A stretch of DNA of 64,000 bases, taken from the NCBI RefSeq assembly GCF_002844395.1, contig NZ_CP025197.1, forward strand, positions 2,356,001 to 2,420,000. Reading direction: 5' to 3'. The notes beneath the pieces were generated by a model that did not search any database, had not been told where the DNA came from, and saw only the letters and a program-made list of their open reading frames with translations. Both the position numbers and the translations under genes were made by a program. The stretch comes from Acetivibrio saccincola. Its GTDB lineage: Bacteria; Bacillota; Clostridia; Acetivibrionales; Acetivibrionaceae. Each line of letters opens with the position of its first letter. Positions within the stretch are counted from its first letter, which is position 1. This document shows, one piece after another, positions 14,204-23,144 of the stretch.

Positions 14204-15136
14204 TTAATTTTTTATGGGCAATGTTATTTCTACACAGGTACCTTTGTTTGGAAGGCTGTCAATTAAATTTGATTCCTCTATCATCTGGGCATAACCGGAT
14301 ATTATTGTAAGAGGAGTCTTTAATTCGTGAGTAACATTGTCAAAAAATTGTTTTCTATAGCTTTCTATCTCCTTTAATTTTTCGTGCCTTTCTTTTATTT
14401 CTTGAATTTGAGAGTAAATCCGGTCTTTCATTTTCACGAACTGCTCAGCCAGTTCCCCAATTTCATCATTAGATTTGATATCCACTTTTACTTGAAACTC
14501 CCCTTTTCCAATAACCTTTGAATAATCCCTCAGTTTTAAAAGAGGATTTAATATACTACGGGAAATTAAAAGAGAAACAACAACAATTCCGCCGCCTATA
14601 AAAACAGCAAAGATGCTGATTGACTTTATAAGTGAATACCCATACTGATATAAGCCTGAATAATCTTTAGAGAATCTGTATACACCTATTAAAGTGTTTT
14701 CGATTATAATGGGAATTGAAAATACCGCTACCTTTCTTCCCCCATTATCTAAAATTGTAACTGCACTTTGTTCTTTTAGTGCAAATTTAATGTCTTGGGT
14801 GTCATCTGACAATATGCTCATATGACAGTCATCACCGGCAATGCTCCCGTCTCTATAGTACATTACACCTTCTGTATTCATTTTTTCATTTAAATCCTTA
14901 AGTAAGTCCATGGAAATTAGCGGAAATTTACTTATTGGATCAGAAATATCCTTTATAAGGATAAATTGACGTGAATATATGTTAACATCATTTTCCCCCT
15001 TCTCTAAATCAGTCAAAATCACATTTTCATTACTCTTAATTATTCTACTGTTTATAAAAAAAATCATAATTAAAAATGCAATGCCAAAAATACATATATA
15101 ACTTAAAAGAATCTTATCCCTTATAGAAAACCTCAT
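14204..15136 (-). pseudogene. Sensor histidine kinase lacking its ATPase domain (internal deletion)
   Basis: About 310 residues. The protein has an N-terminal membrane segment, an extracellular sensor of ~140 residues, a second membrane segment, HAMP (ISRSILNPLLKLRDYSK) and a HisKA domain with the phospho-His in VTHELKTPLTIISGYAQM. It then jumps directly to NKGTCVEITLP, which is the last strand of a HATPase domain. The N, G1, F and G2 boxes are absent, so roughly 150 residues were removed in frame near 14270. It cannot autophosphorylate. ATG 15136 follows GAGAGGG and is preferred over the frame opening at 15169. It follows a broken response regulator. Confidence 0.85.
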
Positions 15137-15146
15137 TAAAGCCCTC

Positions 15147-15607
15147 TCACTCCATCTTATAACCCACACCGAAAACAGTCTTAATTATTGAGCCGTCAGA
15201 GTCCCCTATTTTTTTCTCAGCCTTAGAATATGAATGTCTACAGACCGGGTGCCTATGGCATAATCATACCCCCACACCCTGTCTAAAAGTTCATCTCTGG
15301 AAAACACTCTGCCTTTATTTTGTAAAAGTAAATATATTAAATCAAATTCCTTTGTCGTTAAAGGTATGGTTTTGTCATTTCTTATTATTTCACGTCCATC
15401 AACATTAATATATGTATCTTTTTTTATCGTATATTTGTCCTGGTGCTGCATTTTTCCCTGGATTTCTTTAATCCGTCTGAAAGAGGCCTTTACCCTTGCA
15501 ATTACTTCCCGGACATCAAAGGGCTTTGTAATATAGTCATCTGCACCAAAATTAAATCCTGTAACTTTATCAACAATTTTTGTATATGGTACAATAACGC
15601 TTTTTCT
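15147..15607 (-). pseudogene. OmpR-type response regulator remnant (5' truncated and frameshifted)
   Basis: The remnant starts inside the receiver domain (SVIVPYTKIVDKVTGF, GADDYITKPFDVREV) directly after a TAA at 15608-15610, so the first ~70 residues including the phosphoacceptor Asp are missing. The winged-helix DNA-binding domain follows (LTTKEFDLIYLLLQNKGR, DRVWGYDYAIGTRSVDIHI). A run of seven T at 15209-15215 is one base short, giving a stop after RLRKK. Adding one base restores IGDSDGSIIKTVFGVGYKME and ends at TGA 15147-15149, just before the kinase start. This is a dead regulator. Confidence 0.85.
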
Positions 15608-16924: not shown

Positions 16925-19558
16925 TTAGTTTATGTCTATTTCAAATACAGAATTTACAATCATATCTTCAAAATACTCCTCAAGAATTTCTAGTTGTTCT
17001 TTTCCTTTTCCGTCAATGTAATTAATCATATAAGTCATTTTCGCATCTGAACCTTTGTAAATTATTTCTCCAACTTCAGTGTATCTTACTCTCAACTTAA
17101 ATCCCATATTGCTTAAAATATACTTAGAGCCATCAAAATTAAATGAAATATTGTTAATTGCTCCGGTAAGCTTCTGTCTGGCTTTCCCGCCAACCATTAC
17201 TTCCTCTAAAACCATACTTTCAGGTATATCTATAATTTCAACACCACTTGGAAACACCATCTCAAAAATAACGCTGTTTAAACTTGTATCAAATATTGTC
17301 TTCATATAAATGTTGTCATATACCCCTGAAAGCTTAGATATTGAGTCAGCTTTATAAAAATGCTTTCCTGTTGAACTTACAAATTTTGCACCACTGGAAG
17401 CTGCAATTTCATCTAATTGACTTTCTATATCCTTGTCTTCAGGTGAAAAGTCAATAAATGTAGGAGTAATGTTTTCATCTGCTAAATCTTCCGCCACCTT
17501 TTTTGCATATTCTAAAGATTTTCCGTCACTATCTTTTGTCCCGTCTCCTTTTAAGAATGATGCATTTCCATCTTGCAGCATAAATTCTTCATTGTGTAAA
17601 TGCTTGCTGGTCCATTTATTTGGTGCCGAACCTACCAAAACAACCATATGTTTTGAAGCATATTTAAGTGTCTGGCGTGGGTCTTTTAATAGATATTTAG
17701 CTCTCCTTATACCGTCTCCCATATTGCTTTCCCCTGTAACAGGAGATTCGATGCTGTCAATTTTGTTCTTTAATACTTCTGCATTTTCTGGTTTAGATAG
17801 GTCATATAATATAAAGTCATTGTTATTGGCAGAGTCAGAGTACTGTATTATTCCTATTTTTGTCCTGGTTCCTGTAAACCTGTCTACAAAACTTTTTGCT
17901 GCATTTTTTATTGCATACAGGTAGTTTACGCCCTGAAAATATTCTTCTTTAATTTCTTCGTATTTATTGCCGGGATTATTAACCTTCAGGTTATGGGCGG
18001 TGAAATTAAAGTTTTTAGCAGCCAAACTTCCGTTTATAATATTGTTATCTCCTAAAAAAGTAATTCTTCCTGTTTCCGGGTCGTCAGATTTTCCAGGAGC
18101 ATAAACTATTCCGTTTATTTCTGAGTTGATGGTTTCAATATTTATATTTCCCTCTCTTGAATATATAAATAATTTATCATCAGGACCAGAAGGCCTGAAG
18201 TTAGCTCCTTGAATAACTATATCCCCGTCTGCAAGGAGGAAACAGTCATTTAAATTCTTTGTTTCCATTAAAGATATTCTAAGTGACCCTTTAAAATACA
18301 TAGTAGAGTCAATTATAAAAGTATTACTTCCATTTGAAACAATGTCAAACCTGTTTTCACTTGCTTCATATCTTAATAAAATACCTTCCTGCCCCGGCAT
18401 AGGTATTTCTCTGACACCGTCTTCAAAATAACTGGAATCAAATACTATGGCATCCTCCGTTAATCTGGCATCAAAGTGGGGCATGTCCACAGGAACAGTA
18501 AGGTTTTCAAATTCCCCCACATCAATTTCCGGGCTTGTAATAAAGGTGGAAAATGATGAGCATTTTTCGGTAATCCTGATGCTGTGTGATGTACATACAA
18601 AGTCTTTTGAATAAGTACTTCCGTTTATATTTACATCGTATCCTTCCACTGATAATGTATCATGGGCATATATACCATAATCCAACGGCCATGGAACATT
18701 TTTTATGTAGGAATTAAATGTACCTGAATTATCCAAAACCATAACTATTTCCTTGGGTGCCTCAATTACTCCCTCCACCACTAAGCTTCCTTCCTGTACA
18801 AACTCCACATCCACTATTCTCCCAAGGTCAACCTTATTTAATGTATCCCTTGAAAGATTAATATTAGACTGTATATCATCTGATTCAGAAGGCTGTGTAG
18901 GCACAGGTTTTGGCTTTGGTTTTGGTGTTGGTTTTGGTGTTGATGACGGTGTTGGCGTTGGTGATGGTACACTTTCTAATAATATTAAGCTGACATTGTC
19001 AATATAGATATCATGATATTGATTTTCTAAGCTATTTGTATAGCCCAAATTAAATGCCAACTGGCTTGCCGGGTCTGTAGGGTGATTCATGGTAAACTCA
19101 AATGAATACTCTCTTTTTGAAGTCTCCAGGTAGATGATTCTTTCAAAATAAGAAGTATAGTTACTACTATTCTCTATCTTGACTTTTATTTCTCTGTTTA
19201 CTGAAGCCCAAGCCTCAAAAGACAGCAAATACTTATTTGAGTTTTCAATGGTAATATTGTTTTGGTATAACTTAACTGACCAGTCATAATCTCCTAAACC
19301 TGACACCCCTGTCCGTGAAATACTGTTACCTCCCCCGTCTCCAGTAACAATACTGTATGCATTAGCACTAGCAGCCCAGTCTACAAAAAGTGACCACTGG
19401 GAAGAGCCACTGCTAAAATCCCCGTTTCTTATAATTTCATTTTCTGCACCAGCATAAACTTTATTTAGAGACATACCACCTAAATCAAAACTTAATTGAG
19501 TAAGCGCTACAACCATCACTAAATAAAGCAGACATATTTTTGTAAATTTTTTATTCAT
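16925..19558 (-). CDS. Secreted CBM / split-vWA surface protein, paralog 1
   Basis: 877 residues. Signal peptide to about residue 36 (VYAGAEN); a CBM4/9-like jelly-roll at ~40-195 (IIRNGDFSSGSSQWS ... YIDNVSLI); a Pro/Thr/Lys linker at ~197-225; then a von Willebrand A domain. The first vWA strand and metal loop (IVMVLDNSGT, 271-280) are followed by about 260 residues of beta-rich sequence (INGIVYAPG, NNIINGSLAAKN) before the vWA resumes at ~548 (AIKNAAKSFVDRFTGTRTKIGIIQYSDS). The insert resembles right-handed beta-helix/DUF7305-like sequence. Metal-site residues are altered: DNSGT, ESNMG, and LVGSAPN where LTDGEPN is usual. A beta-rich C-terminus follows. No LPXTG, SLH or dockerin is seen. 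The substrate or partner is unknown. Confidence 0.82.
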   Translation of the reverse strand: MNKKFTKICLLYLVMVVALTQLSFDLGGMSLNKVYAGAENEIIRNGDFSSGSSQWSLFVDWAASANAYSIVTGDGGGNSISRTGVSGLGDYDWSVKLYQNNITIENSNKYLLSFEAWASVNREIKVKIENSSNYTSYFERIIYLETSKREYSFEFTMNHPTDPASQLAFNLGYTNSLENQYHDIYIDNVSLILLESVPSPTPTPSSTPKPTPKPKPKPVPTQPSESDDIQSNINLSRDTLNKVDLGRIVDVEFVQEGSLVVEGVIEAPKEIVMVLDNSGTFNSYIKNVPWPLDYGIYAHDTLSVEGYDVNINGSTYSKDFVCTSHSIRITEKCSSFSTFITSPEIDVGEFENLTVPVDMPHFDARLTEDAIVFDSSYFEDGVREIPMPGQEGILLRYEASENRFDIVSNGSNTFIIDSTMYFKGSLRISLMETKNLNDCFLLADGDIVIQGANFRPSGPDDKLFIYSREGNINIETINSEINGIVYAPGKSDDPETGRITFLGDNNIINGSLAAKNFNFTAHNLKVNNPGNKYEEIKEEYFQGVNYLYAIKNAAKSFVDRFTGTRTKIGIIQYSDSANNNDFILYDLSKPENAEVLKNKIDSIESPVTGESNMGDGIRRAKYLLKDPRQTLKYASKHMVVLVGSAPNKWTSKHLHNEEFMLQDGNASFLKGDGTKDSDGKSLEYAKKVAEDLADENITPTFIDFSPEDKDIESQLDEIAASSGAKFVSSTGKHFYKADSISKLSGVYDNIYMKTIFDTSLNSVIFEMVFPSGVEIIDIPESMVLEEVMVGGKARQKLTGAINNISFNFDGSKYILSNMGFKLRVRYTEVGEIIYKGSDAKMTYMINYIDGKGKEQLEILEEYFEDMIVNSVFEIDIN

Positions 19559-19759
19559 TTAAAGCACAACTCCCTTTTTAAAACATTATTTATTCTTTTA
19601 ATTGTTTATATATTGTAGTTTATATATGGTTTGTATATATAGTTTATATATATAAGTTTACAGATTAAAGTATATAGATTGTGTTCTGCCGGTTATATTT
19701 TATTGATTATGCTTTATTGGTTGTAATTTGTTGTAATTTATTAATTGTAATACCATAAG
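19559..19759. other. AT-rich spacer with TTTATATAT repeats
   Basis: About 200 bp between the stalk-protein gene and the first vWA gene. It consists of repeated TTTATATA and TTGTAATTT-like words and has no hairpin terminator. It probably holds the promoter of the downstream gene, but no clear -35/-10 pair stands out. Confidence 0.5.
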
Positions 19760-20506
19760 TTATAAATTGTATTTGGCAATTCTTACAACATTCCTGTCCT
19801 TATTTAATGTCTTCACAACAATTAACTCCGGCTTAAAATCCTGTGATGTATATATAACTGCTTTAAATTCCCCCGCATCCCCCTCCTTTATCTCACTGGT
19901 AATACCGCTGGCTATTCTTTTTGACTTGTCATAAGCCTCAATTATCATCATTCTTTTAGGCTGGTTACTTTTTCCTCTGACGGTTATGATCCCTCCTTCT
20001 TTGGATGTATCCACACTTTCTAAAGAAAACTCCAAATCTTCAAAATGCACCATGTCTCCTAAGTTGTATCTTTTAAACACATTAGTAATATAAACTGTTC
20101 TTGTTTCGCCATCCCATTTAACTTCTGCCCCGGAATTTTCCGCAACAAATCTCAATGGTACAAAGGTTCTTCCATTAATAATCTCAGCAGGTACATCTAA
20201 TTTTCTTTTAAACCCGTTTACATAGGAATAATCCTGCCCAATCCCTAAAATAATTTCTGTTGTGTCATTTTTTGCATAAACTGTTTTAGTTGCAGCATTC
20301 CAGCTGACTTCCAGTTCCATGGCCTCAAATATCACCCTGAAAGGCACCATTGTCCTTCCGTTTTTTATATAGGGGGCTACATCAAATTCAAGAACTTCCT
20401 GATTTAAATACACTCCTATTTCACTTTTTGCATATGTATCCGGCTTTACTACACCAATTAAAAATACTACTGCAATTATTGTTGCTATTGCTACCGTTTT
20501 TTTCAT
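19760..20506 (-). CDS. Secreted copper-amine-oxidase-type stalk-domain protein
   Basis: 248 residues. A signal peptide (KKTVAIATIIAVVFLIGVV) precedes a copper amine oxidase N-terminal-like domain made of two repeats with the family signatures NGRTMVPFRVIFEAM and NGRTFVPLRFVAENSGAEVKWD. The C-terminal ~110 residues (LEFSLESVDTSKEGGIITVRGKS...) are beta-rich and resemble an Ig-like unit. Such domains in Clostridia are wall-associated modules, not oxidases. It starts 43 nt after the second vWA paralog and precedes the first, so co-expression and a shared envelope role are likely. The partner is inferred. Confidence 0.85.
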   Translation of the reverse strand: MKKTVAIATIIAVVFLIGVVKPDTYAKSEIGVYLNQEVLEFDVAPYIKNGRTMVPFRVIFEAMELEVSWNAATKTVYAKNDTTEIILGIGQDYSYVNGFKRKLDVPAEIINGRTFVPLRFVAENSGAEVKWDGETRTVYITNVFKRYNLGDMVHFEDLEFSLESVDTSKEGGIITVRGKSNQPKRMMIIEAYDKSKRIASGITSEIKEGDAGEFKAVIYTSQDFKPELIVVKTLNKDRNVVRIAKYNL

Positions 20507-20549
20507 AATCCACCCTCACTTTATTTTGTTTTTACTGTTTTTATGTAAA

Positions 20550-23144
20550 TCAGCTTATATCTATAGTCATTTTTACATATACAGTCAGTCCGCCAAAATT
20601 CTCTTCAATGGTTTTGGTCATATCTTCCCCACCGGCGCCTTCTAACTTAAATATGTACCTTATCAATTCATCTTCTCCGGAAAATACAACTTCACCAGGT
20701 TTTAAAAATCTTACTTTTATATCAAATGAGTGTTCCGGAATTTTATACTCTATTCCATCAGTAGATGATAGATTAACATCTTTGATTATTCCTTTTACTT
20801 TGCTTCTTTGAACCCCGTCTACATTTACAGTGGAAACTTCCATATTCTCAGGTACTTCCACTACAAAAACTCCTTCAGGTAAAAGAGCTTCATATTCAAT
20901 ATCTGCCAATATCAATGCTGTTGCTGCATTCTCTGAAAAGTAAGACGATACTATATCAAAAATGTCTCCTAATTCAGTTATTGAGTCAGCAGTATAAAAA
21001 TGCTTGTCTGTATTTAATACCTTTTTTGCCCCACTTGATACAGCAATTTTTTCTATTTTTTCTTCAATTCTGTCTTGTGAAAAGTTTACAAAAACAGCTT
21101 CTATATCATTTTCATTCACAATTTCTCCAACAGTCTTTGCATATTCCAACGAACTTCCGTCACTGTCCGAAGTCCCGTCTCCTGCCAGGTGGACTGCAGG
21201 TCCGTCATCAAGCTTAGGTATTGTTTTTTCCCCATTACTGCTGGTCCACTTATTTGGTGCTGAACCTGTAAGTACTATTATTTGTTTTGAACTATTTTCT
21301 CCACTTCCTGAACCAGCCAGCATATAGTTGGCCCTTCTTAAAGCATCGCCCATATTGCTTTCTCCTGATGCCCCCAAATCAAATCCGTCAATTTTATCTT
21401 TTAAAAGCATGGCATTGGATTCTTCACTTAAATCATACAGTTTAAAATCGTTATCATTGGCAGAACCGGTATACTGAATAATTCCCATCTTTGTTTTTGT
21501 ACCTGTAAACTTGTCTACAAGTTCTTTGGCTGCTTTTTTAATTAAATTGGCATTATTAGGACTTTGAAAATGCCTTTCTATAATTTCAGCTATCCCTTCA
21601 AGGCCATAATTAAATTGGGTATTTTGTCCTTCAAAACTAATGTTTTTAGCTGCCAAACTACCATATATATCATTATTAATTCCCTGGAGAATAACATTTC
21701 CACTATTAGGGTTTTCTGCAATTCCGGGTGCATATGCAATGCCATATAATGTTGAAAAAGATGTTTGAAACCTTATATTTCCTCCTATGGAATACACAAA
21801 TACCCTCTCATCAGGCCCTGCAGGTAAAAGATTATTACCTTGTATGGAAATGTCACCGTCAGCAACTAAGAAACTACCACTGATATTTTTTATAACAACC
21901 TCATCTAAAGAAATTATAAGATTAGCTTTAAAGTACATTGAGGAATCTATATAAAACGTAGCCTTATTATTTGCCACTATTCTAAAATTATTTTGTGACG
22001 GCTCATACCTTATATGTACCTCTGGCTGCCCTGGCATCGGCACAGCTGCATCATCCGGAAAATCCTCAGGATCAAATACCTGGGCGTTTTCTAATGCTTC
22101 CTCAACTAAACTTCCAAAAAAATGCGGCATTTCAACAGGTTCTGAAATGGTTTTTATTTCATTTATATCATATTCTCCTTCTATATAGTGAGTAAAAGAA
22201 GCACAAGTACCGGTAATGGTAATTTCATTTGTCAGGTCAACAAAATCCTTAGAATAAGTATTTCCATTTACATATGCAAAAAGCCCTTGAAAATTAAGCT
22301 TTTCACTTGCATAAATACCATAGTTAAAAGGTGAATTAATTTCTTCATAATATGAGTTAAAAGCTCCGGAATTATCCAATGCCAGTACAATTTCTTTTGA
22401 ATTTTCTGTCTTGGTGGATAATGGTATCAAAAAACTACCTTCCTGAGCAATTTTCATGTTTTCTGTATCCCCAAATTCCACCTCTTCTTTTACAGTCCGG
22501 GACAAAGCCAGGCTAGACTGGACTTCTGTATCCATATCTTCTTTCTTTTTCATCTCCTCTTCTTTTAAACTAATTTGGGTAATTGTAACTTCATGAAATT
22601 CATTTATTATTTGGTCTTCTATACTTCCCATATTAAATACCAGTTGTGCCTCAGGATTATCAGTACTTGCCATTATGAATTCCATTCTATACTTTTTGTT
22701 TTTAGTACCAAGACTTTCAATTTTACTAAAATATTTTTCACCGGTTACAGGGTTTTTTAATTCAACTGCTATTTTTCTTGGAATTGTAGAAAAAGCATCA
22801 AAAGTAAGAACATATTTATAAGATTTTTTTAAAGGAATATCATTCTGAAAAAATTGAATTGCCCAATCTGTATGCCCGGTATTATAAATACCTGTAACTG
22901 CCGATCTGGTAAAGTTTTTAGGGCTAATTATATTATATGCTTTTGCACCTAATACACTGTTATATTTAAAGCGCCAATGGTTAAAATAAAAATCAAAATT
23001 CCCATTTTTTACAAGCTCAATTCCCGGATCTCCCGGTGCTGCATAAACTTTTCCTCCATAGAACAAAGAAACCCCCAGAAATGACTGTAGAATAATGTAT
23101 AATACAAACTGTATTGCAATGCAAAAATATATTTTTTTACGCAT
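20550..23144 (-). CDS. Secreted CBM / split-vWA surface protein, paralog 2
   Basis: 864 residues with the same order as the gene at 16925: signal peptide to ~35 (KVYAAPG), CBM4/9-like domain (ELVKNGNFDFYFNHW ... HEVTITQISL), a short charged linker instead of the Pro-rich one, then a vWA domain with DNSGA at 257-261, the same ~250-residue beta-rich insertion (LYGIAYAPG, NNDIYGSLAAKN), and the vWA body resuming at IKKAAKELVDKFTGTKTKMGIIQYTGS. The atypical LTGSAPNKWT is shared, so the altered metal site is ancestral to the pair. A clear housekeeping promoter lies upstream, and GAGGAGG precedes the ATG. Confidence 0.82.
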   Translation of the reverse strand: MRKKIYFCIAIQFVLYIILQSFLGVSLFYGGKVYAAPGDPGIELVKNGNFDFYFNHWRFKYNSVLGAKAYNIISPKNFTRSAVTGIYNTGHTDWAIQFFQNDIPLKKSYKYVLTFDAFSTIPRKIAVELKNPVTGEKYFSKIESLGTKNKKYRMEFIMASTDNPEAQLVFNMGSIEDQIINEFHEVTITQISLKEEEMKKKEDMDTEVQSSLALSRTVKEEVEFGDTENMKIAQEGSFLIPLSTKTENSKEIVLALDNSGAFNSYYEEINSPFNYGIYASEKLNFQGLFAYVNGNTYSKDFVDLTNEITITGTCASFTHYIEGEYDINEIKTISEPVEMPHFFGSLVEEALENAQVFDPEDFPDDAAVPMPGQPEVHIRYEPSQNNFRIVANNKATFYIDSSMYFKANLIISLDEVVIKNISGSFLVADGDISIQGNNLLPAGPDERVFVYSIGGNIRFQTSFSTLYGIAYAPGIAENPNSGNVILQGINNDIYGSLAAKNISFEGQNTQFNYGLEGIAEIIERHFQSPNNANLIKKAAKELVDKFTGTKTKMGIIQYTGSANDNDFKLYDLSEESNAMLLKDKIDGFDLGASGESNMGDALRRANYMLAGSGSGENSSKQIIVLTGSAPNKWTSSNGEKTIPKLDDGPAVHLAGDGTSDSDGSSLEYAKTVGEIVNENDIEAVFVNFSQDRIEEKIEKIAVSSGAKKVLNTDKHFYTADSITELGDIFDIVSSYFSENAATALILADIEYEALLPEGVFVVEVPENMEVSTVNVDGVQRSKVKGIIKDVNLSSTDGIEYKIPEHSFDIKVRFLKPGEVVFSGEDELIRYIFKLEGAGGEDMTKTIEENFGGLTVYVKMTIDIS

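Follow-up and report, generated by a model that had tools for sequence, protein, structure and literature searches.

PilY1/PilC proteins of Myxococcus, Pseudomonas and Neisseria are, like the two Acetivibrio saccincola proteins A and B described here, large and secreted, with a vWA domain in some members and a variable N-terminal part. In models of the Myxococcus tip complex, the last eight residues of PilY1 are reported to form a strand added to PilX (PMC11046646), and a 2026 survey describes the same strand addition in further models, with the C-terminal part conserved and the N-terminal part variable (PMC13190605). However, A and B differ from PilY1 in having no match to the PF05567 beta-propeller (no row among the Pfam matches up to E 1 for either protein), a CBM head, a vWA domain split by a solenoid, genes outside the pilus cluster and a different tail. 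They are not members of the PilY1 family, and on the reading preferred below they would be PilY1-like in their working. The best structural match of the vWA domain of A was PilB of Streptococcus sanguinis (Z 24.0, 2.4 Å, 227 residues), which resembles A and B in the reported arms near its metal site (PMC8179133); PilB, however, belongs to the pilins and has a functional metal site, whereas A and B show no pilin part and are without the Asp needed for the metal. The sortase-pilus tips SpaC, RrgA, GBS104 and PitA also hold a vWA domain within a multi-domain adhesin and aligned to residues ~228–872 of A, but with a high rmsd; A and B have a different insert and no sortase signal, their translations ending in IDIN and IDIS without an LPxTG-type motif or a hydrophobic end. 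The tapirins of Caldicellulosiruptor bind cellulose and are linked to type IV pili. These adhesins have a solenoid-like C-terminal domain that matched the insert of A weakly (Z 8.9 and 8.4), but their architecture is another one and the likeness is too weak for a claim of kinship. To our knowledge, it is still an open matter how cellulosome-forming clostridia attach to cellulose and which proteins form the tips of type IV pili in clostridia; among the titles and abstracts of the literature matches listed, we found neither a C-terminal tip tag nor a pilus tip with a CBM for clostridia. A published table of type IV pilus operons includes C. thermocellum ATCC 27405 (PMC3244431), and a type IV pilin of Ruminococcus flavefaciens is reported to be linked to growth on cellulose (PMC3672088).

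The window, which is the whole 64,000-nucleotide stretch of DNA analysed, belongs to the 3.6 Mb, single-contig genome of A. saccincola. Three minus-strand genes lie in it in the order B, S, A, separated by 43 and 201 bases, and the ORF check returned the coordinates, strand and trio given in the earlier note. Gene A (16925..19558) encodes a secreted protein of 877 residues and gene B (20550..23144) its paralog of 864 residues, with 39% identity across 900 aligned columns; the earlier note had called the pair giant secreted paralogs, and secreted paralogs they are, although large is the better word for their size. Both carry the CBM4/9-like head claimed for them, as Pfam CBM_4_9 scored 53.2 bits in A and 32 bits in B over a cut-off of 25.9, and the head of A (residues 40–172; 19043..19441) matched the CBM4 of CbhA/CelK in structure. 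Gene S (19760..20506), the copper-amine-oxidase-type protein previously noticed between the paralogs, encodes 248 residues with a signal-peptide-like N-terminus and matched Cu_amine_oxidN1 (PF07833) at 140.3 bits over a cut-off of 24.2. A closes with a beta-rich domain (residues 770–872; 16943..17251), seen as strands in the predicted model and in the pilus-adhesin alignment up to residue 872, and with the tail IDIN (residues 874–877; 16928..16939); B ends in a tail of the same pattern, IDIS (residues 861–864; 20553..20564). Neither protein had a dockerin, cohesin or SLH match in Pfam, NCBIfam gave only matches far under cut-off, and a sequence search of solved structures, made for B only, gave photoactive yellow proteins as its best matches (E 0.069 or worse). 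Promoter and terminator scans gave counts close to chance (43 against 35.6 expected and 6 against 4.5 expected respectively). A prophage origin was rejected, with no PHROG match at E 0.001.

The Pfam VWA profile matched A and B only from its position 15–17 (17 in A), starting at residue 547 of A and 530 of B, which is about 270 residues past the DNSGT motif of A and the DNSGA motif of B. In contrast, three uninserted relatives (L056, L046 and L054) were matched continuously from profile position 1–2, and an alignment of 38 proteins set the first vWA strand and the DxSG motif of nested members (residues 266–280 of A; 18719..18763) against their counterparts in the uninserted relatives. In the predicted model of A (22 sequences, mean pLDDT 79.7, pTM 0.60), single vWA chains spanned the region from residues 264–268 to about 750–759 with only about 170–190 aligned residues at 2–3 Å; 1shu, for example, aligned over 180 of its 181 residues from 264 to 756 at 2.6 Å. 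Such a wide span with so few aligned residues is as expected of a split vWA, the remainder of which covers residues 546–757 (17288..17923). The vWA fold was supported by Pfam scores over cut-off and by structural alignments.

The inserted segment of A (residues 277–545; 17924..18730) folded on its own into a confident beta-solenoid (pLDDT 88.7, pTM 0.87), which structural comparison matched to DUF3494 ice-binding proteins (Z 16.8, 2.9 Å, 186 residues) and to the Thermus pilin ComZ (Z 16.5, 5.1 Å, 232 residues); Foldseek against the PDB gave nothing below E 0.001 for the insert, and the fold assignment comes from the former comparison. The corresponding domain of B (residues 258–530; 21555..22373) aligned to it with 48% identity. 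Between the DNSG motif and the VWA match, Pfam scored DUF7305 at 24.6 and 25.2 bits, under the cut-off of 27, a value reached in A by a genome search with the neighbouring sequence in frame; no paper on DUF7305 was found in the literature searched. Two stand-alone pilin-like proteins (L051:7025-8098 and L052:6043-7113) pair a Tad N-terminus with the same solenoid domain, found there by the insert HMM and by Pfam as Tad plus DUF7305, but in these TadG-like pilins the domain follows the Tad N-terminus, whereas in A and B it lies within the vWA. Together, the predictions give good support to a vWA domain that is split after DNSG in both proteins by a self-contained beta-solenoid of ~270 residues. 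The insertion within the vWA had thus been recognized correctly from the sequence, with a length nearer 270 than the ~250 residues first given, and the suggested structure prediction favoured the split domain with an insert that folds alone. That a nested vWA is tied to a sugar-binding module was borne out by Pfam, the uninserted relatives, the models and the metal-site alignment. The vWA may itself sit within a beta-sandwich domain, a suggestion from the model only, since SpaC, PitA, RrgA and GBS104 aligned from residues ~228–234 to 871–872 at an rmsd of 11–18 Å. A descent of the insert from the PilX-like pilin, for which there was a motif likeness seen by eye, was considered as well; the insert HMM had no match among 137 ORFs up to E 1, profile comparison gave a probability of 8.5% (E 0.004), and this kinship is rejected for now.

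The metal site of the vWA domain was compared in one alignment, in which the misplaced motif of L054 was corrected manually. The set D, S, S/T, T, D was complete in all three uninserted proteins and in none of the 35 inserted rows. A has D, S, T, S, G and B has D, S, A, S, G at these positions in place of a full MIDAS (DxSxS, T, D), so that the third metal-site Asp is replaced by Gly in both paralogs, in agreement with the earlier note; three other inserted proteins (L042, L043 and L045) keep this Asp and have Arg in place of Thr. An incomplete metal site in A and B is therefore well supported, and the insert clearly exemplifies a large domain lodged in the loop that carries the metal site of a vWA. 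For PilB, the equivalent Asp is reported to be required for metal binding, and without it structure and piliation remain while twitching is lost (PMC8179133).

Of 16 related loci in the named collection, five come from named organisms (Herbivorax sp., Acetivibrio alkalicellulosi, A. mesophilus, A. straminisolvens and Pseudobacteroides cellulosolvens) and the rest from MAGs. The named organisms belong to the cellulose-degrading clostridia, and the bacterium of the window is probably a cellulose degrader as well. The nested region was matched in 23 genomes among 100 relatives, and a model running from the vWA to the C-terminus matched 19 of 58 genomes of the order at E 1e-6 and 25 of 391 in a sample of the class at E 1e-10, several of the latter being merely distant vWA proteins. 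The heads of seven other nested proteins carried CBM3, CBM4_9, CBM6, CBM35 or F5/8 domains. An S-type gene lay within 1 kb of 34 of the 45 nested genes, immediately upstream in 29; for the other 11 there was no S match in the stretch examined (ten genes) or an S 3.1 kb away (one gene), and three of these 11 start at a contig edge. Near the uninserted relatives, an S-type gene was seen once in 14 cases. The recurring unit is thus better described as a pair of S and a nested gene than as the trio whose co-occurrence had been proposed as a check. The A. saccincola genome has a third, diverged copy near 350 kb, which ends in IDLN. At five loci (L039, L047, L048, L049 and L050), diverged pairs of S and nested-vWA genes stand divergent from motA/motB-like genes, MotA being confirmed by Pfam in L048 only; the gene beside the diverged copy in L048 had been taken as FliL, but Pfam gives DUF5050. 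In another locus (L044:5891-8093, G009) the nested gene runs across two overlapping frames with an intact-looking S gene upstream, and the remnant of another nested protein, 204 C-terminal residues with the end IDIS (L068:5719-7477, G007), adjoins a gene matching transposase-type HTH_38 and rve.

We then compared the family with type IV pilus clusters. Two uninserted relatives, in L179 (G243) and L046 (G037), are encoded in such clusters, preceded by genes of the PilN/PilO type, pilins and a PilX-like protein, T2SSF being confirmed by Pfam in the L179 cluster, and more distant vWA proteins (L182, L183, L184 and L191) likewise follow pilin-like genes in pilus clusters. The cluster of the A. saccincola genome, in which Pfam confirmed T2SSE, T2SSF, N_methyl and PilN but not PilO, ends in a PilX-like protein with a weak PilX_N match below cut-off (E 0.0098) and a lipoprotein, after which no vWA gene follows. 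A and B lie outside this cluster and are not encoded with minor pilins, which counts against a place at the pilus tip. The PilX-like protein had a match in 24 of the 58 genomes of the order: both it and the family occurred in 17, the family only in two, the pilin only in seven and neither in 32, a co-occurrence with p 2e-7 (0.01 when the home family is left out), with no correction for relatedness. G011 and G031 are family-positive without a PilX-like match, which also speaks against a tip location. At a strict E of 1e-20, the PilX-like pilin was found in its own genome only among 398 genomes sampled from the phylum.

The region downstream of the PilX-like protein was inspected in 22 genomes, 15 family-positive and seven family-negative, G001 and G012 being left out. 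No candidate tip gene was present in the cluster in 12 of the 15 family-positive genomes (G000, G002, G003, G005, G006, G007, G008, G009, G010, G013, G017 and G040); in G037 the vWA gene lies in the cluster, and the contigs of G004 and G044 stop at this point. In six of the seven family-negative genomes, the tail stood on the first large secreted protein encoded behind the PilX-like pilin and lipoprotein, as VDIN (G056, G055 and G029), IDIN (G049), ADIN (G033) or VDIQ (G025), with one further gene between lipoprotein and large ORF in G055, G056 and G049; in the seventh, G047, the ORF encodes a Cu_amine_oxidN1 protein of 707 residues without the tail. These tail-bearing proteins carry other domains (DUF5057, PA14 or unknown) and have no vWA-family match. 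In G033, pilB-, pilT- and pilC-like genes follow the tail-bearing gene, which is thus not always the last one. Neighbours of tail-bearing proteins in L226:4446-5192 (G025) and L167:6900-8132 (G040) join Cu_amine_oxidN1 or SLH with cohesin; when the C-terminal region of S was compared with the G025 protein for a cohesin, the alignment covered the N-terminal part only.

Tails were counted after dropping ORFs shorter than 100 residues, open at an end or identical in the last 40 residues. A D[ILVT]x tail closed 40 of 45 nested proteins and all six cluster proteins that had no vWA-family match; among background ORFs it closed 21 of 755 (Fisher 1e-9 comparing the six with background), and the narrower D[IVL][NST] ended three of the 755, one of them a nested-gene fragment. 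Because the proteins of G055, G056 and G049 are related, the six represent about four independent architectures. With the nested proteins right-justified, Asp at −3 (41/45) and Ile at −2 (36/45) were the most conserved of the last 30 positions; Asp at −3 is absent from L040 (ETN), L169 (LIS), L173 (NIM) and the broken L176. Eight of 21 uninserted vWA-family ORFs, belonging to this order and to one further family (f23), end in [DN][IVL]N; the rest, mostly distant, have no tail, which counts against the tip reading. Four pilus-cluster vWA proteins of one family (f56; L182, L183, L184 and L191) end in PELF or PNLE, possibly another docking tail. BLAST found no similarity at E 0.01 among the tails of A and the six cluster proteins; the tails of G056, L046 and G033/G049 are weakly similar to one another, and in some cases the tail may owe its conservation to being the final strand of a common domain. 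In the A. saccincola genome, there were 126 matches to a broad DNA pattern (D-x-N plus TRR) and 180 in its reversed control, and four against eight for a narrow one, so the tail is not enriched at the DNA level; one of the four narrow matches ends in TGG, and only that of A closes an ORF of 40 residues or more.

Taken together, we consider it somewhat more likely than not that A and B are adhesins at the tip of the type IV pilus, PilY1-like, encoded in trans and equipped with sugar-binding heads. This proposal starts from features computed directly, namely the nested fold, the incomplete metal site, the homology to vWA proteins encoded in pilus clusters, the tail in common with other cluster proteins and, in 12 of 15 genomes inspected, a pilus cluster without an equivalent gene; two partly independent lines, the kinship with pilus-cluster vWA proteins and the tail on otherwise unlike cluster proteins, suggest the pilus role, and the tip location, docking partner, cellulose binding and role of S are what we infer. 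The co-occurrence with the PilX-like pilin, the CBM heads of other nested proteins and the resemblance of the vWA to PilB and of the insert to ComZ also speak for it; against it stand the missing beta-propeller match, the negative comparisons of the insert with the PilX-like pilin and the tails that may be conserved as a domain's final strand. A and B would be exported as alternative tips of the cell's type IV pilus, with a PilY1-like function built from other parts, and the CBM4 head would bind plant polysaccharide. The vWA with its incomplete metal site would be a scaffold, the solenoid sitting beside the former ligand site, and the IDIN/IDIS tail may be what binds the large minor pilin resembling PilX, possibly as an added beta-strand of the kind modelled between PilY1 and PilX. 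Since the genes lie outside the pilus cluster and in several copies, tips could be exchanged, and cellulose-degrading clostridia would then have a set of exchangeable fibre-gripping tips. S would be a conserved secreted partner with an open role; the tip reading leaves this most constant neighbour unexplained, which counts against it. We hold more tentatively, at just short of an even chance, the broader notion of plug-and-play pilus tips, in which an Asp-Ile-Asn-type docking tail turns a secreted protein of nearly any fold into a tip. In cellulose degraders the gene would then have been relocated and multiplied outside the cluster and fused to CBMs, and the metal site of the vWA would have been lost along with the insertion of the solenoid at that site. 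If the tail does mark tip proteins, tips could be read from genomes. Of the undescribed wall or fibre assembly suggested previously, a link to a fibre gains indirect backing from the relatives' pilus clusters and the shared tail, and a new wall polymer gains none.

The constancy of S could instead mean that A and B are wall-associated adhesins, held at the cell surface by S with the tail as its handle and with no pilus involved. The closeness of S-type genes to nested genes, diverged copies included, is in line with this, as are S-like Cu_amine_oxidN1 genes in the pilus clusters of G025 and G047 and the SLH proteins that neighbour the uninserted relatives L179, L046 and L167. However, the cluster proteins of G055, G056, G049, G029 and G033 bear the tail with no S match in stretches of 18–19 kb, and the 11 nested genes without S within 1 kb (three at a contig edge) also speak against S as the general holder, so that we regard this explanation as unlikely. 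The carbohydrate-binding heads of A, B and other nested proteins would also suit released matrix or cellulosome-associated sugar-binding proteins, the tail being a mere last strand of the C-terminal domain, and vWA modules are reported in some scaffoldin-related proteins of A. alkalicellulosi (PMC6780208). A and B are without the dockerin, cohesin or SLH modules sought with Pfam, and the tail also follows a proline-rich linker (L056) and stands on proteins with unrelated C-terminal parts; such a released role seems improbable. Very improbable, in our view, is that they are surface sensors in which the nested vWA passes force or contact to motility control: although the five diverged pairs beside motA/motB-like genes (MotA by Pfam in L048 only) fit it and one study deals with surface sensing by PilY1 through its vWA (PMC9210963), the window copies lie among unrelated genes and no signalling partner was found. 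Tip adhesins are thus the reading we prefer.

Counterparts in A. (Clostridium) thermocellum would be Cthe_1257 and the pair Cthe_2423 and Cthe_2424, judged from gene order, strand and annotation. The nested gene of G010 adjoins a GH3 gene and so would correspond to Cthe_1257, annotated as CenC, which adjoins the GH3 gene Cthe_1256 and is reported as higher at 12 h on Populus compared with switchgrass (PMC3880215). The second pair of G010 would be Cthe_2423 (hypothetical) and Cthe_2424 (copper amine oxidase-like), which adjoin and have entries of 2.9/0.9 and 3.3/1 in a table on ethanol stress (PMC3478167). A Clo1313 copper amine oxidase-like protein is reported elsewhere (PMC6116742) and could not be mapped. 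In the A. saccincola genome, two further regions (L187 and L188; G000:C1:1344000-1354000 and 3313000-3323000) hold, in opposite orientation, ORFs equal in length and start sequence, including an SLH plus vWA protein, and are probably a long inverted duplication. Finally, a minus-strand histidine kinase ORF in the window (14204-15451) has HAMP and part of HisKA with no ATPase domain match, and beside it an 81-residue ORF matches only the DNA-binding part of a response regulator; the two look like a decayed two-component pair.
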